Assembly: GCF_000255115.2 (NCBI RefSeq)
Contig: NC_018068.1
Coordinates: 2,761,977 to 2,825,976 of the forward strand
Source of the DNA: Desulfosporosinus acidiphilus SJ4
GTDB lineage: Bacteria > Bacillota > Desulfitobacteriia > Desulfitobacteriales > Desulfitobacteriaceae
Direction: 5' to 3'
Length of the DNA: 64,000 bases
In this document: positions 35,874 to 52,023 of the stretch, in pieces
Position numbering within the stretch: position 1 is the first letter of the stretch
Layout of the letters: each line of letters opens with the position of its first letter
Program-made: the position numbers and the translations under genes
Notes under the pieces: generated by a model
The model's input: the letters and a program-made list of their open reading frames with translations, nothing else
The model's database searches: none
Told to the model about the DNA's origin: nothing

Positions 35874-35889
35874 AGCAACTTCTATGCCA
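35874..35889 (-). promoter_or_regulatory. Sigma-54 promoter of the PAS-EBP operon
   Basis: Minus strand TGGCATA-GAAG-TTGCT fits the -24/-12 consensus TGGCACG-N4-TTGCW with exact GG/GC spacing. Predicted start is near 35863, about 20 nt before the ATG of the activator gene, leaving room for its GAGGTGG ribosome binding site. Confidence 0.75.
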
Positions 35890-36154
35890 GTATAGATTAT
35901 AGACCGGTTTTATTATTTAACTGTTTATTCTATTATGAAAATTCTGTATATAGTAATTCCCTTAATGCACTATGACATTATATTTTTGCAGATTCCCATT
36001 AACTATATTTTTTTATCCTTAAGTTAATTGAATCAATTGGATGCAGATAAGCATTAAAATAATGCAAAATGGAATCATGTAGAATACTTCTATAATAAAC
36101 TAATGGTATAATATTTAATTATTACTAATTAATTACATTGCCTTCCGTTTATAA

Positions 36155-36192
36155 AAGGCTCTAATAAGCGTTTTGTAAGCTATTAGAGCCTT
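36155..36192. terminator. Hairpin downstream of the PEP-synthase-like gene
   Basis: AAGGCTCTAATA and TATTAGAGCCTT form a perfect 12-bp stem with a 14-nt loop; the minus strand continues TTTATAAACG. It is about 290 bp after the stop, behind a second AT-rich hairpin at 36333-36374. Confidence 0.5.
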
Positions 36193-36477
36193 CTATTTAC
36201 TATATTCTAACTATTCCGAATATTTATAGTATATATCCCCCTTCCCTATTTGTCCATTGTTTTCTGTTTAGGAGTCAATGTTATTTTTAAATCTATTGAC
36301 TATGCTCACCGGATAATGTTAATTAGTCGTATTTGCATTAAAAATGCCTTAAGGATAGATTATTTTTAATGCAATATTTTATCATCATACCAAAATTTGT
36401 TTAGCATCATTTCTCGAATTGACATTAGCCGATAAGTCAAATCTAACGAAGAAGTTTCATAAATATTTAACTTTCAA

Positions 36478-39426
36478 TTAGTTCGTTTTGAGAATAACTC
36501 CCTGACAACCATGACCGTCAATCTTCACTGTCAGTGGTTGATGCAAGCGAACTAACCTGACATAATCCGTTTGCTTGAGAACCGGTAAACCCTTGAGCCA
36601 CTCCCAATCAACAAATTCTGATTCATTTGCGTCACTAATATGAAGATAACCCATTCTCAGGGATATGAGGTTATGATGAAAATGACTCCCCAGAGAAGGT
36701 TCTGCTTGAAGAGTCCCCCAGTCCGATTCAACAACCACTTTTGCCTGAGATATTTGTGACCATATCAGAGGGATACCAAGCCAGGGATCAGAGGAACCCA
36801 GACGTCCGAAACCTAGGAGCAGGTAATTACGAGATTCATTATACAAGTATTGATTTAATTCTCCTATCTCCTGTCCGATAATCCTCGTCTTACCGCGGTC
36901 AAAGGTATCCGGATCAACGAAAATTATATCGTAGATAGTCTCAAAGACCCCATTGCCAATTGTATGACTGCTTTTACACAATACCCGATCTTTGGCGTAT
37001 TCATTAAGCATAACTTCTTGCAATTCCCTTCCGGAAACTAAAGGACGAATCTGAAGAAAGTAAAATTCAATCTCCTTTTTACGATCCGTAGGAATGTTTA
37101 CAGCAAATTCAATCTCGATATCTGTTCCAAAAGCATTTCTTCCCAGAACAAATAGCTCCTTAATAATATCTGCCAAGGGAAAGAGACCAAACTTCAAAAC
37201 AGGTGCAAACGACACAACTCGAGGTCCTGAAATCGTTAGAGTGTCGCAAAGGGTGTCATTCTCTTTTGAATACGTGCTGCCCACAAAATTTAAAGTACCA
37301 TCCCTTTCTGCACGATCTAAGGTATATGTGCCTAAAGTACACCCTGTGTCTTGGGAAATTTCGATAGCAGGATTGGTTAGCATTAAGCCGTAAAATTGGT
37401 TCTGTGACTTTTTTAGACTATCCTCCGCCGAAGCAAAATCTGGGTTCATCTTTGGATAAGCAGGGCAAAAACGGTAAGCCTTCTCCCCATCAACCACCGC
37501 TTTGCCTAAACCTAAAGCCAGACTAACAATCCCATGTTCAGGCCGCATGTAGGAAATCGGGTAAAAATTATAGGACTGAGCAACCCCGGACATTACCGGA
37601 TAAAAGGCATCCCTATGAACTTCCCCAACAATCTGCTGAATCAAAATTGCCATTTTTTCCTCTTCGATTCGCAAATCAGCATTTTTAATATAGCGTTTGG
37701 GAGACTGATAATAAACCGACGAGTAGACGAGCTTTATGGCATTGAGGAGTTGATATAAGCGGATTTCAGGGTCCTGATGATTATTGGGCAGCATAAAGGT
37801 ATTATATATTCCTGCAAAGGGCAGCATTTGTGAGTCTTCGAGAATGCTTGACGACCTCACCGCTAATGGATAATTAATCTTATCGATTAAGATACGAAGT
37901 TCATTCGTAATTTTGAGAGGAAGTTCGGCGTTTAGGAACCTTTGCGCAATCGTTTCTTCTGCTTCTGTAACCATCGCCATTTCCTGCAAAGAATTTATCT
38001 CAAGAAATTCCTCGAATACATCACTGCAAATAACAAAGGATTGAGGAGTTTTAACCCTGATGTTATCATACTTCTTAAAGACTTCCGTTTGAGATAGGAT
38101 GGAGTTAAAGAATGCTACTCCCCTGCCCTTTCCTCCAAGTGACCCACTGCCCAATTTAAGCAAAGAATTGTCCATATCCATTTTTGAATGTTCGAAGTCC
38201 GTGATAACTCCTTCCTGAATGCGTTTGAAATACATTTGAATTACATGGAGAATATATTCCCTGAGCTCTTCCGGGCTACGAAAATCAGAAACATCCACAC
38301 GACGGATTTGTTCTGCGCATTCAAATTCAGTTCTGGCTTTAAACCACTTGGAAAAATCATAGCGGCAGGCATGAAACAGCAAGCTTTCTTGTGGCAAGAT
38401 ACGAATAATTTCTTCAAATTCATCGATAATAGATGCTCTGGCAATAATGCTTCCATCCTGTTTCCTAAATAAAAAGTCACCAAAACCATAGTTTTCTTTG
38501 ATATACGTACTTAGTTCCAAAAGCATACTGGGCGAGTTTTTATTGAGAAAGTTAATCCCAATCCCCTGTACCCCATCCTCATTTTCAAGTTCACTCGATT
38601 GAACTAAAAACGGCAGGTAGGGAATCTCCTCCTTAATTTTTTTCGCTAAAAGCAGACCTGCCTGCGGGTTGTTTTGCCCTTCTTTTGGGTAGCCCATATC
38701 AGAGATGACACCCAGCAAGTTGTACCGATATTTGCTAAAGAACTCTACAGCTTCCTCGTATGTCTCAGCCAGTAATATTTTAGGTCTGGCCCGCATTCTC
38801 AATAAACGATGCAGATTATTAATACCCTTAGAGATAAGGTAACTCGTCTGTTTCATAATTTCCGTGTAAATAATGGGCAAGAACTGAGAATACGCCCAAG
38901 GTGAGTCTTCTACCACCAAAATAGCCTGAACACCTTCTCGGCAATCTGACTCTAAGTTTCCGAGATCCTCAACATACTTAATAATGGCTAGCAAAATTGT
39001 ATTGTTTCCGGACCAATAGAAGATCTTATCGATTGTTTTGGTCTCGCGAATTTCTTTAAGCAGTTCATAATTAAGAGTATCATAGGTAAGCATGACAACG
39101 GGTTTCCCGGGATAGGTTTCCTTAATACGCTTTCCAAATTCCAGCGGGTTCATATCTCGTATTCTTGCCATGGTCATAATCAAATCATAAGTTCTTTCCT
39201 TCATCTCTGAAAACGCTTCTTCAGCAGAAGAAACTCTGCTTATCCGAGGAACGAATTGCAGGTTATTATCTAAGTATTCTCCAAAGATTTTCTCTGATAA
39301 ACGGCCGTCTTCTTCCAACACAAAGGCATCATAAGGACTTGAAACCAGTAAAATCTCCCGGACACGAAATTTCATTAAGTCATGAAAACCTGAAAATTGG
39401 GTTTTATAAAAATTTGATGTATCCAT
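36478..39426 (-). CDS. PEP-synthase/PPDK N-domain-like protein with receiver-like N-terminus
   Basis: About 982 aa from the ATG at 39426. Residues about 20-330 contain two receiver-like segments (one with AILVVEDSPWAYSQF). A PPDK/PEP-synthase ATP-binding domain follows from about 430: LGSGSLGGKGRGVAFFNS, YPLAVRSSSILEDSQMLPFAGIYNT and a C-terminal LGSSDPWLGIPLIWSQIS block. The phosphohistidine and PEP-binding barrel of true PEP synthase are missing, so it is probably a regulatory or unknown phosphotransfer protein. The start is 4 nt after the stop of a leader ORF (39431-39559), implying translational coupling; the frame is open 37 codons further upstream, overlapping that leader. Confidence 0.75.
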   Translation of the reverse strand: MDTSNFYKTQFSGFHDLMKFRVREILLVSSPYDAFVLEEDGRLSEKIFGEYLDNNLQFVPRISRVSSAEEAFSEMKERTYDLIMTMARIRDMNPLEFGKRIKETYPGKPVVMLTYDTLNYELLKEIRETKTIDKIFYWSGNNTILLAIIKYVEDLGNLESDCREGVQAILVVEDSPWAYSQFLPIIYTEIMKQTSYLISKGINNLHRLLRMRARPKILLAETYEEAVEFFSKYRYNLLGVISDMGYPKEGQNNPQAGLLLAKKIKEEIPYLPFLVQSSELENEDGVQGIGINFLNKNSPSMLLELSTYIKENYGFGDFLFRKQDGSIIARASIIDEFEEIIRILPQESLLFHACRYDFSKWFKARTEFECAEQIRRVDVSDFRSPEELREYILHVIQMYFKRIQEGVITDFEHSKMDMDNSLLKLGSGSLGGKGRGVAFFNSILSQTEVFKKYDNIRVKTPQSFVICSDVFEEFLEINSLQEMAMVTEAEETIAQRFLNAELPLKITNELRILIDKINYPLAVRSSSILEDSQMLPFAGIYNTFMLPNNHQDPEIRLYQLLNAIKLVYSSVYYQSPKRYIKNADLRIEEEKMAILIQQIVGEVHRDAFYPVMSGVAQSYNFYPISYMRPEHGIVSLALGLGKAVVDGEKAYRFCPAYPKMNPDFASAEDSLKKSQNQFYGLMLTNPAIEISQDTGCTLGTYTLDRAERDGTLNFVGSTYSKENDTLCDTLTISGPRVVSFAPVLKFGLFPLADIIKELFVLGRNAFGTDIEIEFAVNIPTDRKKEIEFYFLQIRPLVSGRELQEVMLNEYAKDRVLCKSSHTIGNGVFETIYDIIFVDPDTFDRGKTRIIGQEIGELNQYLYNESRNYLLLGFGRLGSSDPWLGIPLIWSQISQAKVVVESDWGTLQAEPSLGSHFHHNLISLRMGYLHISDANESEFVDWEWLKGLPVLKQTDYVRLVRLHQPLTVKIDGHGCQGVILKTN

Positions 39427-39430
39427 AATA

Positions 39431-39559
39431 TTATCCAACCCAAATTTCAAAAATACCTTGAGATAGGGCTGCATTTTTGGCAGCAACGGCTTGATGAGAT
39501 TCAGGTTCAATCGAATTGTGCCTTTTGACGGTTTCAAATAATTCTTTTACATTGGACAT
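39431..39559 (-). CDS. Leader ORF derived from the glutamate dehydrogenase 5' end (42 aa)
   Basis: The frame starts MSNVKELFETVKRHN and continues ..EPESHQAVAA, matching the first 27 residues of the gdh product at 47632-48969 ([25 protein letters not shown]), then diverges and stops. AAGGAG lies 9 nt before the ATG, and the upstream DNA (AACATC, CTTATATT, CCAA) also matches that of gdh. Its TAA is followed by TATT and then the ATG of the PEP-synthase-like gene. It is either a translated coupling leader or a decayed gdh fragment whose expression signals drive the downstream gene. Confidence 0.65.
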   Translation of the reverse strand: MSNVKELFETVKRHNSIEPESHQAVAAKNAALSQGIFEIWVG

Positions 39560-39644
39560 AGGAACATCTCCTTAACTTATATTTCCAATAGAACTGAAAT
39601 GGCTTTGGGAACCAAAGTTTGACCGGACAACGCACGGCGAACGG

Positions 39645-39676
39645 AAACCATCTCTAAGTTTGCTTAGAGATGGTTT
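39645..39676. terminator. Terminator after the aldehyde dehydrogenase gene
   Basis: AAACCATCTCTAAG and CTTAGAGATGGTTT form a perfect 14-bp stem with a 4-nt loop, 15 bp after the stop of the minus-strand aldehyde dehydrogenase gene. The T-tract is on the plus side. Confidence 0.65.
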
Positions 39677-39690
39677 TTACAAGTATTTTA

Positions 39691-41202
39691 TTAGTGGCTA
39701 AACCACCCCGTTGGCTCAACAGCCAAATTGACGTTAATTTGTTTCACCTCGGTATATTCTTCAAAACCAAAAGTACCCAGTTCACGGCCGATCCCCGACT
39801 GCTTATACCCCCCCCAGGGTGCTTCATTATATGTTGGATGATAGGTATTTATCCACGTGATTCCGGCCCTCATCTTTTTGATTACCCGATGAGCTTTGCT
39901 AATATCGTTTGTAAATACAGCACCAGCAAGCCCGTAAACACAATCATTAGCTACCCGAATTGCATCTGCTTCGTCTTTAAAGGTTTGAACAACGAGAACC
40001 GGTCCAAATATCTCTTCCCGGACAATCCGCATATCTGACCGGGTATCAGTAAAAATTGTCGGTAATAAGTAATTGCCATGCTTACCCAAATCACCTTCAG
40101 GACGTTTCCCGCCGCACAGCAACCGGGCTCCCTCAGACAAACCGATGGCAATATAATCCTCAACGGTCTTTAAATGTTGGGCTGAAACCAACGGACCCAT
40201 CTCTGTCTCAGGATTGAAACCATCACCTACACGAATTTGCAATGCTCTTTCTACCAACCTTGTTACAAACCGGTCATGGATGGATTCTTCTACCAAGAGG
40301 CGTGATCCGGCAGAACAAACTTGCCCTGAATTTACAAAGATACCATAAAGTGCATAGTCGACGGCTACCTCGAAATCGGCATCTGCAAAAATAATGTTAG
40401 GTGATTTTCCTCCCAGTTCCAGGGCAATTTTCTTAATGTTTCCAGAAGCAGCTTGCATTATTTTACGCCCTGTGTCCGTACCGCCAGTTAAGGCAATCAT
40501 ATCAACCAAAGGGCTTTCTGCTAGGTACTGGCCGACACTAGAGCCTGGACCTACCAGAATGTTCACCACACCTTTCGGAAATCCAACCTTGTCAATGAGG
40601 GTTCCTAACCGTAATGCTGTTAGAGGTGTCCATGTTGCAGGTTTTAAAACGCTTACGTTGCCTGCGGCAAGCGCCGGCCCTAGTTTCCAGGCGCACATCA
40701 AAAGCGGAAAGTTCCAGGGAACAATTTGACCGCAGACACCAACAGGCTCTCTTACCACAAAGGATTGGGATGGTGCGGGAACATCGAATACCTGCCCGTG
40801 GGGTTTTGTAACTAATCCGGCGTAATAGCGGAAGCAGCCGGCAGCATCTGCCACGTCATATTCAGCCTCCCGCAACGGTTTACCATTGGACAATGTCTCT
40901 AGCGCGGCTAATTCCGGGGCAATTGCTTCGATTTCATCAGCAAGCTTAAATAATAAATTGGCCCGTTCCTGGGCAGTAGTCTCTGGCCAGCCGTCTACAT
41001 CAAAAGCACGTCTTGCGGCACGAATCGCTCGCTCCGCATCTTCTTCTGATCCAAATGCTACCGAGCCAATGGCTTCACCGGTTGCAGGGTTGTAGAGTTC
41101 TTGAGTTTTCCCGCCGGAGGATGAAACCCACTCACCATCGATAAACATTAGAAAGGTTCCGTCTGTTGATTGTTTCAGGTTTTTTAAGATATTATGCATC
41201 AT
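39691..41202 (-). CDS. NAD(P)+-dependent aldehyde dehydrogenase (possible 4-aminobutanal dehydrogenase)
   Basis: A 503-aa ALDH-superfamily enzyme. Recognisable motifs are PWNFPLLMCAWKLGPALAAG (about 165), ALTGGTDTGRKIM (about 240), ELGGKSPNIIFADAD with catalytic Glu (about 265) and the catalytic Cys in FVNSGQVCSAGSRL (about 300). GGAGAGG precedes the tandem ATGs. It lies in the same direction as, and downstream of, PatA and an APC permease, so oxidation of 4-aminobutanal to GABA is the most economical proposal. Sequence alone does not separate it from betaine-aldehyde or other ALDHs. Confidence 0.87.
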   Translation of the reverse strand: MMHNILKNLKQSTDGTFLMFIDGEWVSSSGGKTQELYNPATGEAIGSVAFGSEEDAERAIRAARRAFDVDGWPETTAQERANLLFKLADEIEAIAPELAALETLSNGKPLREAEYDVADAAGCFRYYAGLVTKPHGQVFDVPAPSQSFVVREPVGVCGQIVPWNFPLLMCAWKLGPALAAGNVSVLKPATWTPLTALRLGTLIDKVGFPKGVVNILVGPGSSVGQYLAESPLVDMIALTGGTDTGRKIMQAASGNIKKIALELGGKSPNIIFADADFEVAVDYALYGIFVNSGQVCSAGSRLLVEESIHDRFVTRLVERALQIRVGDGFNPETEMGPLVSAQHLKTVEDYIAIGLSEGARLLCGGKRPEGDLGKHGNYLLPTIFTDTRSDMRIVREEIFGPVLVVQTFKDEADAIRVANDCVYGLAGAVFTNDISKAHRVIKKMRAGITWINTYHPTYNEAPWGGYKQSGIGRELGTFGFEEYTEVKQINVNLAVEPTGWFSH

Positions 41203-41279
41203 CTTTACCTCTCCTTTTCTTTTTACTCAATTGCACGGCGAAGTTTTAATCCCAACCTCTCGATAGGACATGTAAATGC

Positions 41280-42104
41280 TCATTTTACAAAATTCAAGAT
41301 AATAGAAATAATAATTTCTAATGTTATTAGAAAAATAACAGCATACTCTAGTCGACTACCCCGCCTGGCATGAGCAAGCTCACTGAAAACTTGGGTTATG
41401 TCCATCATCATTTCTGACTTCTGCCTAATATTTTCACACCTATCATTTAATTCAAATAGAGTACTAAGTTTATCAAACAAATTTTCAGCCTCTTCGTTAA
41501 CCCAGGTAATCTCAGGTTTATCAAGCAGCATAATGTATGAAATTACTCTTAATCGAAAGTCTAAAATACGTGCTGACATTTTTGCCAGCTTTTTATCGGA
41601 TACTGTTAAATTCCCTTTTTGCAAATAATTAATTATCTCCTCTATCTCGTCTATCAATTTATCAATTTGGAATTCAATTCGTTCCAATGCAACTGATTTT
41701 GCTAATACGGTACTAACAATTTCCTTTTGAAAGTTTAAATCATAGGCTGTGACCAGATTATCATTATAAATTTTCAAAATCTCATTTGGTGATATCTCAA
41801 CTTTGTAATCATCAGAGAAATCCAAGTAATAACTTATTTGCTCAAGATTTTTTTCAATATGACTCAAGTAGTCTGTTATATCCATGATTTCATGATATTG
41901 ACAGTTGATAAATACAATGCTGCCAAAAGGGAAGACAAAAATTGATTTATCTCGTGGATCCCGGACAATGCCTTTTAGAGCAACTTCATCTAAGGTAAGA
42001 GATTCTTCCCATTTGAATTTATGATTAATTCCAAAATGAATAGCAATTGTATTAACATTAATTTCATCAAGGAAAGCAATAGCTTTAAAATTAATTATCG
42101 TCAT
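41280..42104 (-). CDS. RMD1/YagE (DUF155) family protein
   Basis: A 274-aa protein. Its middle carries the DUF155/RMD1 hallmark DKSIFVFPFGSIVFIN near residues 53-68, and the C-terminus ends in a single membrane helix (AVIFLITLEIIISIILNFV). A long helical region lies between. Yeast homologues (RMD1, RMD8) are poorly understood and act in meiosis or organelle anchoring; the bacterial function is unknown. It sits between the permease and the aldehyde dehydrogenase of the putrescine-type operon, 46 bp from the permease stop, and is probably co-transcribed. Confidence 0.75.
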   Translation of the reverse strand: MTIINFKAIAFLDEINVNTIAIHFGINHKFKWEESLTLDEVALKGIVRDPRDKSIFVFPFGSIVFINCQYHEIMDITDYLSHIEKNLEQISYYLDFSDDYKVEISPNEILKIYNDNLVTAYDLNFQKEIVSTVLAKSVALERIEFQIDKLIDEIEEIINYLQKGNLTVSDKKLAKMSARILDFRLRVISYIMLLDKPEITWVNEEAENLFDKLSTLFELNDRCENIRQKSEMMMDITQVFSELAHARRGSRLEYAVIFLITLEIIISIILNFVK

Positions 42105-42150
42105 AATCTTTTATCTTCCAAACTAAATTGATTTTGCATGCACATCATTA

Positions 42151-43575
42151 CTATAATCCAATCCGATTTGAACTATCGAACTGACCGTCATAATTTTCCT
42201 TATTGCCTTTGTAAAATTCGCTTTTGTATTTCTTTTTGTAAACCACCATAGGAATCAGACCAATCAGCAAAGCACCAAGAGCAATTAAATCCGTAGTCCA
42301 ACCGAGTTGGGGAATATCATATATCGCCACAATCCATAGAAAGAGAGCGGATAAACCGGGCCAAATTCCCCGCATTAAAAGGGCTTTTTTATCAACAGCG
42401 AATAGTTTGCGATAGTACCAAACACTGGTAAATCCTGTAAGACCATAGTAAAATGCAATTTGTAAGCCAAGAGCATTTATGGCACCTGTCATCAGGGTAT
42501 TAATACTGGGACTGAAACTTGAAACCACGAAAGAAAACAAAGCTACGATCCCAATGACAATACTGGCCATCCATGGCGTTTGAAATCGAGGATGTAATTC
42601 GGAAAACCTGGTACTAATCACCCGGTCTCGACCCATTGCAAAAAGTGTTCGGCTGGCTTGCAAGAGAGATGTTTCCAAAGTAGCCACTGTACTTATGATT
42701 ACTGCCAAGATTGCAATATCTCCCCACGGCCGGGGAAAAATCATATCGCCAATGACCGGCAGGAGATTTGTATTAGAGTTGCCGATCTGATCAGGGGTCA
42801 TGCCAATTTGAATTGCAACTTGCATAAACACAAATAAAATGAAAATAGCAATCATCCCAAAAACTCCGCCATACCCAGGAGCTGAATTCCTGTTTTCGGT
42901 CTCTTCAGTCAAGTTGGCGGTTACATCCCATCCCCAGTAGTAAAATACAGCTACTAAGGCACCGGACATAAATGTGTTTATATCCCCTGGAGCAAACCAA
43001 CTTAGAGAAAAACTCTGTACCGGCGCGGAGTTGAATTTGACAAAGGCTCCAACGGTGATAAGAACTAGACAAGCTACTTCTATTGTTGTCATAACTTTCT
43101 GAAAATTATTTGTAATCCTAATCCCTAAAATAATTAACACGTCCATTGCTATAAACCACATGGCTCCTACCACAGTGACGGCAATTACATTATTTGTCAA
43201 GTCCGGAGCTAACAGATCAAGTGTTGCAGAGCCCACCGGCAGGGAGCCCGCAACCATGAAGAGGGTTGAAGCAACTATAAGTGCCCAGCCGCTCATGAAT
43301 CCCAAGGAAGGGTTAATTGCCCGACCTACCCAGGCATAACTGGCACCAGCGTCGGAGCGCCACTCATTTAAATATTTAAATGCAAATGCAATACCAAACA
43401 TAAATATTGCTGCATAAACAATAGAACCGGGTCCCCCTAGACCGACAGCGGCGACCAAAGCCGCTGTACTGGCCGATAAAGAGTAGGCTGGAGCGGTGCC
43501 GGCGATTCCCATGATCACGGAATCGGCCTTAGACAAAACATTATGGCGAAGTTCTTTCACATTATCACTAGCCAA
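42151..43575 (-). CDS. APC-superfamily permease, probably amine/polyamine uptake
   Basis: A 474-aa, 12-TM permease. TM1 segment ADSVIMGIAGTAPAYSLSAS and the loop WRSDAGASYAWVGRAINPSLGF near residues 73-94 are APC-family features, and LTEETENRNSAPGYGG lies near 215. The TTG start has AAAGGAGGGG about 9-11 nt upstream. It is 27 bp downstream of patA, so import of putrescine or a related amine is likely from context. Confidence 0.87.
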   Translation of the reverse strand: MASDNVKELRHNVLSKADSVIMGIAGTAPAYSLSASTAALVAAVGLGGPGSIVYAAIFMFGIAFAFKYLNEWRSDAGASYAWVGRAINPSLGFMSGWALIVASTLFMVAGSLPVGSATLDLLAPDLTNNVIAVTVVGAMWFIAMDVLIILGIRITNNFQKVMTTIEVACLVLITVGAFVKFNSAPVQSFSLSWFAPGDINTFMSGALVAVFYYWGWDVTANLTEETENRNSAPGYGGVFGMIAIFILFVFMQVAIQIGMTPDQIGNSNTNLLPVIGDMIFPRPWGDIAILAVIISTVATLETSLLQASRTLFAMGRDRVISTRFSELHPRFQTPWMASIVIGIVALFSFVVSSFSPSINTLMTGAINALGLQIAFYYGLTGFTSVWYYRKLFAVDKKALLMRGIWPGLSALFLWIVAIYDIPQLGWTTDLIALGALLIGLIPMVVYKKKYKSEFYKGNKENYDGQFDSSNRIGL

Positions 43576-43602
43576 ATATCGTTCCCCTCCTTTTTAGATA
43601 AC

Positions 43603-44988
<1,386 letters not shown>

Positions 44989-45205
44989 TTATTGACCTAA
45001 CTGCCAGAACTCCTATAACAATAATTCTTTCTTCACATTAGGACAGCCGATGTTCGAAAACATAAATTAACCCAACAAAGGTGTACACATTTTCCGACTG
45101 ACATCCATTATCATAGAAATTTATTTACACCGCCTTTCTTCACATCAACTTTTCTCACCCAGTAAGGAGAAAAAAATGATAGTCTATCTCGACAATAACA
45201 AAGTT

Positions 45206-45222
45206 AGCAATAGTTGTGCCAA
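45206..45222 (-). promoter_or_regulatory. Sigma-54 promoter of the patA operon
   Basis: Minus strand TTGGCACA-ACTA-TTGCT is an almost perfect -24/-12 element. The predicted transcript starts near 45195, leaving a leader of about 225 nt before patA. It lies in the divergent region next to the sigma-54 activator gene at 45539. Its -24 half is also one arm of a perfect inverted repeat (45209-45256). Confidence 0.85.
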
Positions 45223-45256
45223 TCATTTAACTATTCTAATAATTGGCACAACTATT
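45209..45256. repeat. 15-bp inverted repeat duplicating the -24 element
   Basis: AATAGTTGTGCCAAT (45209-45223) and ATTGGCACAACTATT (45242-45256) are perfect complements 18 bp apart. The right arm gives a plus-strand TTGGCACA-ACTA followed by TTAAT, i.e. a -24 half facing the activator gene without the -12 GC. It could be an activator site, a dead promoter or a hairpin. Confidence 0.75.
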
Positions 45257-45327
45257 AATTAATTTCGCATATCTTCCCTTTTTGTTCTCAATAAATAGTT
45301 ATCTGACTATGTATAAAATAATCAAGG

Positions 45328-45367
45328 GCGCCTTAGGTAAACCAGCAAAACAGGTTATCTCGGCGCC
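45328..45367. other. Strong unexplained stem-loop upstream of the activator gene
   Basis: GGCGCC at each end, an inner stem of AG.TAA.ACC with GGTTATCT, and a loop of about 9 nt (AGCAAAACA). There is no T-tract. It lies upstream of the sigma-A promoter at 45478-45505, so it is not in that transcript; its role is unknown. Confidence 0.45.
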
Positions 45368-45477
45368 GTTGATATGTAAATATTATTATGAAGAAGATAC
45401 TACATTACCTTCTTAGATTAATACCTACCTTTGATGATAAACCCACTTACTTCTTGTAAATTCAATAACTTTCATTC

Positions 45478-45505
45478 TTGTTAATTGTATGCATTACTGT
45501 ATAAT
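45478..45505 (+). promoter_or_regulatory. Putative sigma-A promoter of the sigma-54 activator gene
   Basis: TTGTTA, 16-bp spacer, TATAAT. It lies 34 bp upstream of the ATG at 45539, so the leader would be short and carry AAAGGGG. Confidence 0.55.
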
Positions 45506-45538
45506 CTAGTTAATTCTAAATAAAGGGGCACTGCCATT

Positions 45539-48981
<3,443 letters not shown>

Positions 48982-49102
48982 CTATCTTATATTCCAAAAG
49001 AGCCGATAAAGGCCTTTTGTTTCCAATATAGTTACAATAGTAAGTCGTTCAATTGCATAGTTTTATTTTTTTTCAAGCTATCTTCTGTCCAGGGAAATCA
49101 AT

Positions 49103-49119
49103 ATGCAAAGATCGCGCCA
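49103..49119 (-). promoter_or_regulatory. Sigma-54 promoter of gdhA
   Basis: Minus strand TGGCGCG-ATCT-TTGCA fits the -24/-12 consensus with exact spacing, about 135 bp before the gdh start. The remaining 48970-49500 gap holds the gabT terminator and otherwise AT-rich DNA. Confidence 0.8.
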
Positions 49120-49423
49120 GAATTTCAGTCATTATGTGAACTGTCTGACAATTCATTCCAATATAATTATGTCTTATTACAAGTAGCTTGAATCAAGGGT
49201 TATCTCAAAAAAAATTGCAAAGGTAAATTCATTTTGTTACAGCCCGTAGATCTGCATCTTAGTTAATTGACCCACTTAATAGCACCAGAGCATTAAGTGA
49301 TTATTGAATGCATCCTACTGTGAGTGAACAACTTCTGGAAAATTTGGGCTGACAATAACTCCCCCTGAATAGCAATGTTATTGCAAATTCTAAGCAGTCT
49401 ATTATAAGAGAATTAAATAAAAG

Positions 49424-49458
49424 GCCATTAAGTGCCGGGCTATCCGGTACCTAATGGC
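49424..49458 (-). terminator. Terminator of gabT
   Basis: GCCATTA.GT.CCGG with CCGG.AC.TAATGGC forms a long stem with a small loop; on the minus strand CTTTTATTTAATT follows. It lies about 40 bp after the gabT stop. Confidence 0.8.
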
Positions 49459-49500
49459 GTATTTGCCGCTATTCAGAAAAGAAGAGTTTCTACAAAATCG

Positions 49501-50835
49501 TTATATATTTTGACGGCTAACTTTCGCAAAAGCGGCTTCTAAAATATTTAAGGCCTGCTCTAGCTGCTCGTTCGTGATAACCAGGGGCATTAACATCCTA
49601 ATGACATTTCCGAAAACCCCTGCCGAAATAATCAGAAGGCCATGTTTTAGACATTCTTGAGTAATTTGAGCCGTTTCCTCTTTGGCCGGTTCCTTGGTAA
49701 CCCGGTCTTTAACAAGTTCAATTCCAACCATAGCCCCCAAACACCGAATGTCCCCAATTAAAGAGTAAGTCTCCTGCATTGCCTTTAAACGCTCAACGAC
49801 GGTTCCGCCAATCCTATCTGCGCTTGATGAAAGATTTTCTTGCTGAATATAATCGATTGTTGCCACACCGGCAGCACAGGCAATTGGATTACCTGCATAG
49901 GTGCCCCCAAGCATTCCTGGTTCGGGAGCGTCCATGATTTCAGATTTGCCCACCACCGCACTTAAGGGAATCCCAGCGGCAATTGATTTTGCCATGGTCA
50001 TAAGATCTGGTTCTACTCCGTAATGTTCAACAGCAAACATTTTTCCTGTCCGGCCAAAACCTGTCTGAATCTCGTCGGCTATAAAGACGATGCCATTATT
50101 TGAGGCGATGGACTTCAGGCCCGGCAAAAACTCTTTAGGCGGGACAATAAAACCACCTTCCCCTTGTACCGGCTCGATAATCATAGCGGCAATGGTTTCC
50201 GGGGCTGCTTCAGCCGCAAAGAAACGTTCAAATTGTTCCAGACAGTGCATTCCGCATCCCGGGTAGGTTGATTTATAATAACAACGATAACAATAAGCTG
50301 ATGGAATTCTGTAAATTTCCGGAGCAAAGGGACCAAAACCAAATTTATAGGGTTTTACTTTACTTGTTAACCCCATGGTTAGATTTGTCCGCCCGTGAAA
50401 AGCCATTTCAAAAGCAATAATTCCAGTCTTTTTGGTATACGATCTGGCAATTTTTATAGCATTTTCCACGGCTTCGGCACCACTGTTACCGTAAGTTACT
50501 TTTAAATCGCCGGCTATAGGGGCAATTTTAGTCAGCCTTTCGGCCAGGTCAACCCATCCCTCATACATAGAAGTCATAAAACACGTATGAATTAATTTGT
50601 CTGCTTGATCCTTTATTGCCTTAACAACAGGTTTAGGACAATGGCCCGCATTTAAAACACCAATTCCACCATAAAAATCAATAAATTCATGACCATCAAC
50701 ATCGATTAGTAAGGCACCCTCTGCTTTTTCAATAAATAAAGGGGTTCCCTGTGAAATCCCCCGAGCTGTGCACTGATTTTTTCTCTCGATCAGTGCTTTA
50801 GATTTTGGTCCCGGCAGTGTAAGTTCTTGAGACAC
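49501..50835 (-). CDS. gabT: 4-aminobutyrate aminotransferase (class III)
   Basis: A 444-aa PLP enzyme. Motifs include FIDFYGGIGVLNAGHCPKPV, VTYGNSGAEAVENAIKIAR, FEMAFHGRTNLTMGLTSK, IIEPVQGEGGF, FIADEIQTGFGRTGKMFAVEHYGV and MTMAKSIAAGIPLSAVVGK with the PLP lysine, all in the GabT/ornithine-aminotransferase pattern. A cysteine-rich insert AYCYRCYYKSTYPGCGMHC at about 185-205 is typical of bacterial GabT. GTG at 50835 is 9 nt from GGGAGG; the TTG three codons earlier abuts the site and is rejected. It would convert GABA plus 2-oxoglutarate to succinate semialdehyde and glutamate. Confidence 0.9.
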   Translation of the reverse strand: MSQELTLPGPKSKALIERKNQCTARGISQGTPLFIEKAEGALLIDVDGHEFIDFYGGIGVLNAGHCPKPVVKAIKDQADKLIHTCFMTSMYEGWVDLAERLTKIAPIAGDLKVTYGNSGAEAVENAIKIARSYTKKTGIIAFEMAFHGRTNLTMGLTSKVKPYKFGFGPFAPEIYRIPSAYCYRCYYKSTYPGCGMHCLEQFERFFAAEAAPETIAAMIIEPVQGEGGFIVPPKEFLPGLKSIASNNGIVFIADEIQTGFGRTGKMFAVEHYGVEPDLMTMAKSIAAGIPLSAVVGKSEIMDAPEPGMLGGTYAGNPIACAAGVATIDYIQQENLSSSADRIGGTVVERLKAMQETYSLIGDIRCLGAMVGIELVKDRVTKEPAKEETAQITQECLKHGLLIISAGVFGNVIRMLMPLVITNEQLEQALNILEAAFAKVSRQNI

Positions 50836-50956
50836 CTGATACAACCTCCCGTTCTCATCTAAAATTTGTGTCTATTTACGATCCATTATAAGAGCTTTCT
50901 TTGGGTTGTCTCCTTTTAGAGGCGACAATCCTTGGGAACTATTCTGATATTGGCTA

Positions 50957-50973
50957 ATGCAAGTTTCAGGCCA
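50957..50973 (-). promoter_or_regulatory. Sigma-54 promoter of gabT
   Basis: Minus strand TTGGCCTG-AAAC-TTGCAT fits the -24/-12 consensus, about 125 bp before the GTG. The rest of the 50836-51245 gap holds the terminator at 51186-51217 and nothing else recognised. Confidence 0.78.
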
Positions 50974-51185
50974 ATTATTAGAGTTTCTAAAAATGGATTG
51001 TACAGGCAGCTTTCTTAATCATTACAAAGAGTCTTTAATGCAATCAAACATTAAGAGCTCCAAAGATTGTGGGATGTCGTATAGATAAACTGAGATCTTG
51101 TAATGCTCCAATGCATAAAATAATGCATAAATACAGCAAATAATCTACCCAAAACCCTTCCTCATACTACCCCCTTAAGATAAAA

Positions 51186-51217
51186 GGAGTTGTAACCGAC
51201 CTGTCTGTTACAACTCC
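51186..51217 (-). terminator. Terminator of the zinc-ribbon gene
   Basis: GGAGTTGTAAC/GTTACAACTCC is a perfect 11-bp stem; on the minus strand TTTTATC follows. It lies 30 bp after the stop of the 98-aa gene. Confidence 0.8.
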
Positions 51218-51245
51218 ACGACTCAAACCACAATACCCTACTGCA

Positions 51246-51542
51246 TTAACATTCAGCATCTTCGGGATTGAGTTCAAAATACTCGACCATTTTTATTAAA
51301 TCATTGTATTTATTTAAAGCCCAAGGATAAGGGGTTCCACATTGATGACAATAGGATGACTCTACTCCTCCTATAAACGCATTACATTTGATACAATTAG
51401 AGATATTCTTTGCGTTAAAGGTCTCAAAATCCTTCGTTTCGCTCTCAGTAACTTTCATACTTGATCTGTTAATCATATAATACGTCCTTTCAAACATATT
51501 AATGCTTGCATCTTGTTTTCGGCATAATTGATTGACAGTCAC
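51246..51542 (-). CDS. Small zinc-ribbon-like protein (98 aa)
   Basis: The C-terminal half carries NCIKCNAFIG...SSYCHQCGTPYP, two CxxC pairs of zinc-ribbon type. The N-terminal half is polar without recognised motif. GTG start with AGGGGG 8 nt upstream. Function unknown; the fold suggests protein or nucleic-acid contact. It is monocistronic, between gabT and a small membrane protein. Confidence 0.7.
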   Translation of the reverse strand: MTVNQLCRKQDASINMFERTYYMINRSSMKVTESETKDFETFNAKNISNCIKCNAFIGGVESSYCHQCGTPYPWALNKYNDLIKMVEYFELNPEDAEC

Positions 51543-51675
51543 AGTTATTCCCCCTTGGAAAGCCGTATTTTCACCAATATAAGCATTTGTTAACCTTTTA
51601 GAGACTCATGGATTGAAGAATCAAATATTAATATTGCAATTTCCATGCCATTGCGTCTCTGGCGGTCTGAAACTC

Positions 51676-51709
51676 AACGAGGAAGACCAAATTTTTGGTC
51701 TTCCTCGTT
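51676..51709. terminator. Bidirectional terminator hairpin
   Basis: AACGAGGAAGACCAA and its complement form a stem of about 15 bp with a very small AT loop. It lies about 70 bp after the stop of the 81-aa membrane protein gene and upstream of the zinc-ribbon gene. Confidence 0.75.
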
Positions 51710-51777
51710 TCCTATTTATGTTCCGATATATAGATATTTCAACCTTTTAAAGTTTCAATTTCGAATACCAACTCTAT

Positions 51778-52023
51778 CTACAATTGCATATTTAAACCGG
51801 ACTTACCAAATAAAATAGCAGAGATTATCAGCAGGCGCAGGGCTTCCCAATATGAAATTTCTCTGATGTTAAAAATACGAGTTATTGTAATATTCCATAA
51901 CCACATTAGAACACCACTAACTATAAACAACAGCACAATCCATAGTAATAACATTGAAAATATGCCGCCCATTATTCCTGGAAAAAAACTCATCGGACTG
52001 CCACCAAAAGAAATATCATGCAT
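51778..52023 (-). CDS. Small membrane protein of unknown function (81 aa)
   Basis: AAGGAG lies 10 nt before the ATG. A glycine- and phenylalanine-rich start (SFFPGIMGGIF) leads into a long membrane helix (about 20-43) and a weaker hydrophobic segment near the C-terminus (ALRLLIISAILFG). I do not recognise the family. A strong terminator follows. Confidence 0.6.
   Translation of the reverse strand: MHDISFGGSPMSFFPGIMGGIFSMLLLWIVLLFIVSGVLMWLWNITITRIFNIREISYWEALRLLIISAILFGKSGLNMQL

Follow-up and report, generated by a model that had tools for sequence, protein, structure and literature searches.

The gdh Locus and the 42-codon Frame

The window examined here is a stretch of 64,000 nucleotides (nt) from Desulfosporosinus acidiphilus SJ4 (contig NC_018068.1, positions 2,761,977 to 2,825,976 of the forward strand), and the element of interest is a frame of 42 codons on its minus strand that carries the 5′ end of gdh, the gene for an NADP-type GDH, directly ahead of a gene for a 982-amino acid protein. 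A first-pass annotation, made from this one genome, had described the frame as a fused leader of the downstream gene; comparison with relatives changes it into the probable scar of a lost operon gene. The features on which the argument is built are the following, in window coordinates.

36478..39426, minus strand: gene for the 982-amino acid receiver-PPDK_N protein (the PPDK_N gene below), downstream partner of gdh, under purifying selection
39427..39473, minus strand: apparent gdh 3′ end and old gdh-to-PPDK_N intergenic stretch, collinear with the relative G003
39431..39559, minus strand: apparent gdh remnant (the “leader” frame), about 26 gdh 5′ codons joined to the last few gdh codons, with the original stop lost and a new TAA 4 nt before the next gene
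39560..39606, minus strand: retained gdh 5′ untranslated region (UTR) with the Shine-Dalgarno sequence AAGGAG (duplex energy −8.2)
47632..48969, minus strand: intact gdh (NADP-type GDH, NF006929); no other full copy of this type was found in the genome
49501..50844, minus strand: γ-aminobutyrate (GABA) aminotransferase gene, upstream neighbor of gdh

Read from 39559 to 39431, the frame begins MSNVKELFETVKRHNSIEPESHQAVA and encodes the 42-amino acid peptide MSNVKELFETVKRHNSIEPESHQAVAAKNAALSQGIFEIWVG. Nineteen of its first 26 residues are identical with those of the GDH encoded by the intact gene, and the corresponding DNA match (39481-39606 with 48891-49016) has 79.5% identity over 127 aligned columns, with a blastn E value of 3.8e-25 against the window; it spans 47 nt ahead of the ATG, including the ribosome-binding site (RBS), and about 26 codons. 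The local alignment score of this match is 120, compared with a maximum of 32 among 294 random window pairs. A search of the whole genome with the peptide (E ≤ 1) returned only the frame itself and the intact gdh, and in a search of 60 genomes (E ≤ 0.1), where a query of this length can miss remote copies, the matches beyond its own locus were solely the starts of full gdh genes (in the window genome, G003, and G025). The frame therefore has the homology to the 5′ end of a parent gene that is looked for in a pseudogene, and the first-pass annotation was correct that genuine gdh sequence, including the RBS region, is present and that a second copy of gdh is involved. It also described the junction accurately, in that the TAA of the frame is followed by TATT and then by the ATG of the 982-amino acid frame at 39426, a spacing of 4 nt. 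Its choice of start for the downstream gene holds as well: the proteins of five relatives begin at the same place (MDTS, METS, MENL, VENL), and the longer 1019-amino acid frame with a TTG start is therefore not the conserved one.

Gene Order in Relatives

Close relatives of the PPDK_N gene (75-89% identity) are present in 5 of the 28 congeners searched, designated G003, G025, G011, G001, and G004, and the remaining 18 matching relatives have 28-31% identity and match solely within residues 387-935 of the query. In all five congeners a complete gdh (445 amino acids) lies upstream on the same strand, the same order and strand as in the window, and its stop is separated from the PPDK_N start by 21 nt in G003, 125 nt in G011 and G001, 184 nt in G004, and 503 nt in G025. 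It follows that gdh adjoined the PPDK_N gene before the arrangement in the window arose, and that a full gene stands in the relatives at the position of the frame, which is the situation expected of a pseudogene. The arrangement found in the window does not recur among these five congeners: unlike the window they have no short leader, so that the frame is not conserved as one, and a full gdh is in its place. The GABA aminotransferase gene precedes gdh in G003, G011, and G001; it was not seen within the stretches taken from G025 and G004. In G003, which is broadly collinear with the window on both sides, the PPDK_N gene comes directly after gdh, without the block of genes that separates the two gdh sequences of the window, and apart from this block both have the order GABA aminotransferase, gdh, PPDK_N gene, sigma-54 activator.

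The Probable 3′ End of a Lost gdh

Past about residue 27 the frame (..AALSQGI) matches the C-terminal end of GDH (..AAAMMSQGIY in G003), and a blastn match of window positions 36475-39463 with G003 extends collinearly from the downstream gene across the intergenic DNA as far as the final codons of gdh in G003. On inspection by eye, the window's ..GCAGCCCTATCTCAAGGTATTT.. corresponds to ..GCAGCCATGATGTCTCAAGGTATTTATTAG.. in G003. The tail of the frame together with the intergenic stretch (39427-39473) has a score of 37 against G003, compared with at most 23 in 2000 shuffles and a best score of 26 elsewhere in G003 (34 kb, both strands); in a random-window control, 8 of 3000 windows scored at least 37 and all of these overlie the true place. 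The 3′-end match is convincing because of its position beside the same downstream gene, and it puts the 3′ end of the parent gene where it should be in a pseudogene, although the evidence is weak for the coding part alone. The start, RBS, and 3′ end of the G003 gdh can all be recognized in the remnant; by comparison with the pair in the congeners, about 1.2 kb of gdh is gone, the stop is lost, and the full gdh is 8 kb upstream, beyond the block. By split alignment, about 1217 nt have been lost and the joint falls near codon 26, with similar scores for several alternative joints. A clean deletion between 7-bp GTTGCTG repeats was considered and rejected: the pair of repeats is present in the ends of the G003 gdh, but the remnant is about 6 nt longer than such a deletion would leave, and the intact gdh of the window does not have the pair.

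Constraint on the Remnant

Over the 26 codons, the nonsynonymous divergence (dN) of the remnant from three intact gdh genes is 0.142-0.172, whereas these three genes differ from one another by 0.033-0.051. Changes unique to the remnant number 7 nonsynonymous to 5 synonymous, whereas the intact gdh differs from that of G003 by 37 to 131 (Fisher p 0.01). Two of the replaced positions are highly conserved in a set of 34 GDH rows (tblastn matches with E ≤ 1e-60, excluding rows of <50% identity and those that start beyond residue 5; three genes are present twice): residue 21 is Phe or Tyr in all 34 and Ser in the remnant (F21 to S), and residue 16 is Pro in 31 and also Ser in the remnant (P16 to S). 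For a sample of this small size, these results point to a relaxation of constraint on the remnant, a loss of coding constraint of the kind that marks a pseudogene. Remnants of operon genes that arise by internal deletion keep both ends and lose the middle, are under relaxed constraint, and have a redundant intact copy. The window's remnant resembles them in its ends, lost middle, relaxed constraint, and intact copy, and differs in staying in frame and in ending 4 nt before the next start.

These observations have to be weighed against the proposal of the first-pass annotation, that a duplication confined to the 5′ end of gdh (the RBS and the first codons) became joined to the PPDK_N gene, which would thereby come under gdh-like regulation through a coupled leader. 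Inclusion of the RBS in the 5′ match would suit such a fusion, as would the stop 4 nt before the PPDK_N ATG, the weak Shine-Dalgarno sequence of the PPDK_N gene itself, and the poor match of the gdh-coding part of the tail when tested alone. However, the presence of a whole gdh upstream in every congener that has the close gene, and of the old gdh 3′ end still in place inside the frame, is contrary to the idea that a gdh start was brought in to drive an unrelated gene. The notion of borrowed regulation also lacks support, since the upstream DNA that is shared amounts to the 47 nt of the 5′ UTR, the peptide is under relaxed constraint, and the coding strand of 39380-39760 gave no sigma-70-like site in a promoter scan (the single such site is on the other strand, a number not exceeding that in shuffled sequence). 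A duplication limited to the 5′ end therefore appears highly improbable, and we conclude with considerable confidence that a complete gdh once lay upstream of the PPDK_N gene and that the frame is its in-frame scar and not a captured control element.

The Putrescine Block and the History of the Locus

The genes between the two gdh sequences, with a function in putrescine catabolism, are as follows.

39691..47638, no strand assigned: block between the two gdh copies
39691-41202, minus strand: aldehyde dehydrogenase
41280-42104, minus strand: DUF155 gene, AT-rich (31% GC)
42151-43575, minus strand: permease
43603-44988, minus strand: putrescine aminotransferase (NF008570, 714.5 bits, cut-off 612)
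45206..45221, minus strand: site TGGCACAACTATTGCT, resembling the sigma-54 -24/-12 consensus, before the putrescine aminotransferase gene
45539-47638, plus strand: sigma-54 activator, overlapping the end of gdh by 7 nt and divergent from the rest of the block

GABA aminotransferase and gdh provide later steps of the putrescine catabolism route. No match to the permease of the block was obtained from the 28 other congeners (E ≤ 1e-80) or from the 81 other genomes of the class (E ≤ 1e-100), where a direct donor was not found; in a phylum sample of 398 genomes one other genome has a match (48%). For aldehyde dehydrogenase, four other congeners gave matches of 64-65%, and matches of 42-44% were obtained at three places; the sigma-54 activator matches four other genomes of the class at E ≤ 1e-180 (G031, G026, G452, and G453). 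In G031, from the same family, putrescine aminotransferase (85%), aldehyde dehydrogenase (84%), and activator (78%) are found together, without the permease and DUF155 genes, and the group has as neighbors a further activator and a GDH of another type (34%). G026 and G452 have an aminotransferase (70 and 81%, respectively) and a remote permease (27 and 24%) near the activator. From these distributions, the putrescine block looks acquired.

The intact gdh looks mosaic. Compared with the G003 gene it has a changepoint at nt 959, with 10.0% mismatch before and 19.5% after (the last ∼380 nt), and none of 300 codon shuffles gave one as strong; mismatch at third positions is 0.25 and 0.44 on the two sides (p 0.0001). 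In the control pair, G003 with G025, no changepoint in gdh was apparent (196 of 300 shuffles). As a separate observation, the 495 nt at 49024-49518, between the GABA aminotransferase gene and gdh, are absent from G003, and no second copy of this DNA, which is upstream of the intact gdh, was found in the genome.

The history that we favor starts from a single-strand arrangement in which the GABA aminotransferase gene was followed by gdh and this by the receiver-PPDK_N gene. The putrescine block would then have been inserted at gdh in the line leading to the window genome, leaving a copy of gdh on each side; the copy beside the aminotransferase gene would have stayed whole, and the copy beside the PPDK_N gene, its constraint relaxed, would have lost about 1.2 kb internally together with its stop codon. 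The most likely route of insertion, which we hold to be about evenly balanced between right and wrong, would be recombination within gdh, of a single-crossover or duplication-like kind. A crossover inside gdh would have brought in the block and left a chimeric gdh on each side, and the mosaic character of the intact gene fits this. A tandem duplication of gdh followed later by independent insertion of the block between the copies, and then by decay of one of them, would give the same final map, with gdh sequence flanking the block on both sides. This order of events is possible but the less probable one, since it requires two unrelated events at one place and does not by itself explain the mosaic 3′ third of the intact gdh.

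Several observations weigh against the reading of the frame as a scar of a complete gdh, or against the history given for it. The gdh-coding part of the tail is weak on its own: it scores 27 with the 3′ end of the G003 gdh and 24 elsewhere in G003 (34 kb), and the 11 nt that it shares with the end of the window's own gdh are equaled at another place in the window. The joint is not clean, having about 6 nt more than a simple join at the shared GTTGCTG. The test of constraint rests on 12 remnant-only changes, and the nonsynonymous share among them, 7 of 12, is below the neutral 79%, from which it does not differ significantly (p 0.08). The mosaic signal in the intact gdh is weaker when G025 is the reference and falls at another place (14 of 300 shuffles; third positions 0.41 and 0.46, p 0.40). 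Finally, no genome was found in which the block has a full gdh on each side.

Expression Signals and Possible Translational Coupling

Between the aldehyde dehydrogenase gene and the remnant there is one further feature.

39645..39676, no strand assigned: perfect hairpin with a 14-bp stem and a loop of 4, the stem not being followed by a T run on the minus strand

A repeat family was considered as the source of the hairpin and rejected, its exact pattern being present at a single place in the genome. The scan of 39380-39760 found no terminator-like site by its rules, and no Rfam match at gathering thresholds was found in 36000-52000. As no T run follows the hairpin, transcription from the putrescine operon may or may not extend to the PPDK_N gene.

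The Shine-Dalgarno duplex energy of −8.2 for the remnant compares with −4.3 for the PPDK_N gene in the window and −6.4 to −11.0 for the PPDK_N gene in the five relatives; random 20-mers have a median of −1.5, with 5% at −6.1. If the region is transcribed, survival of the RBS and start would probably allow the 42-residue peptide to be made, and the ribosome would then terminate 4 nt ahead of the PPDK_N start and could reinitiate there. An RBS with a stop within a few nucleotides of the downstream start is the geometry of a leader, and the stop-start coupling suggested by the first-pass annotation is to this extent permitted; its other attribute, conservation in relatives, is absent. In a study of translationally coupled genes (PMC10666635), termination-reinitiation needs very short distances, being nearly abolished at ∼20 nt, and a spacing of +2 nt cost 5, 20, and 70% of reinitiation in three Escherichia coli pairs. 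Given this dependence on short distances, the +4 nt at the remnant is within reach, although overlap is the usual arrangement. The coupled genes described there resemble the remnant in having a strong RBS, a short frame, and a stop beside the downstream start, and differ in that the usual overlap is -4/-1, compared with +4 nt here, where the arrangement is known from sequence alone. Translational coupling from the remnant to the PPDK_N gene is thus plausible, and the scar may be useful to that gene.

A refinement of the favored reading, with the same origin by gene loss, is that the PPDK_N gene has become dependent on ribosomes that load at the gdh RBS and reinitiate after the stop of the remnant. 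The leftover RBS, start, and nearby stop would then be the main route for translation of the PPDK_N gene and would have let its own RBS decay. In accord with this, the Shine-Dalgarno sequence of the PPDK_N gene is weaker than that of the remnant and than those of the five relatives, the distance from stop to ATG is 4 nt compared with 21 nt in G003, short distances favor reinitiation (PMC10666635), and the PPDK_N gene is under purifying selection. On the other hand, the arrangement is known from a single genome, a weak Shine-Dalgarno sequence may be enough, chance alone could readily supply a stop close by once that of gdh had been lost, and the same study records costs of 5-70% even at +2 nt; the peptide is also not conserved, although the model has no need of that. 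We therefore consider such dependence rather unlikely, for the leftover signals as main route and for the refinement as a whole. Should the downstream gene be driven by the scar, this would be a clear case of gene loss leaving a coupling leader.

The Receiver-PPDK_N Protein and Its Association with GDH

The PPDK_N gene is very probably still in use, as judged from a dN of 0.057 and a synonymous divergence (dS) of 0.66 relative to G003. The 982-amino acid protein has a receiver domain and a PPDK_N ATP-binding domain in Pfam. No Pfam match at E ≤ 0.001 was found in it to the phosphoenolpyruvate (PEP)-utilizer mobile or C-terminal domains, and with 39.7 bits (best stretch, residues 447-648) it falls below the cut-off of 739.75 for the PEP synthase model TIGR01418. 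The earlier term “PEP-synthase-like” is therefore a loose one.

The neighborhoods of receiver-PPDK_N genes were surveyed in the best 80 of 113 loci, a GDH being counted if it had at least 50% identity with >350 nt matched; it should be noted that the loci are not independent and that the count has no control gene. A GDH of this type flanks the receiver-PPDK_N gene in 24 of the 80, and in 13 of these gdh is upstream on the same strand, at 73-507 nt. Four of the 24 are Desulfosporosinus loci already counted among the congeners, and the record titles of the others name Thermoplasmatota, Thermoplasmatales, or Thermoplasmata archaea (7), Bacteroidetes, Ignavibacteria, Neomarinimicrobiota, Cloacimonadota, Myxococcales, and Negativicutes. 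Such a GDH was not seen in the remaining 56 of the 80, which include the Firmicutes-like loci next closest in sequence (L033-L040 and L042); flanks are short in some of the loci. No description of this locus or of the gdh/receiver-PPDK_N pair was found in the open-access literature, among the matches listed. The receiver-PPDK_N protein may regulate GDH or be its partner, and its position next to gdh in these loci makes it a possible uncharacterized GDH partner.

In 20 of the 80 loci (L054, L056, L058-L063, L065-L067, and others), mostly with Bacteroidetes or Bacteroidales titles, there are two long receiver-PPDK_N matches, which probably represent two receiver-PPDK_N genes in tandem. Downstream of the PPDK_N gene of the window, a sigma-54-like site, TGGCATAGAAGTTGCT, is present at 35889 on the minus strand, 46 nt before the next gene, which itself encodes a sigma-54 activator. 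The identical site is located 45 nt before the same activator gene in G003, and a one-base variant, TGGCACAGAAGTTGCT, precedes the activator gene in G011 and is also present near the end of the G001 stretch, the gene itself lying outside that stretch.

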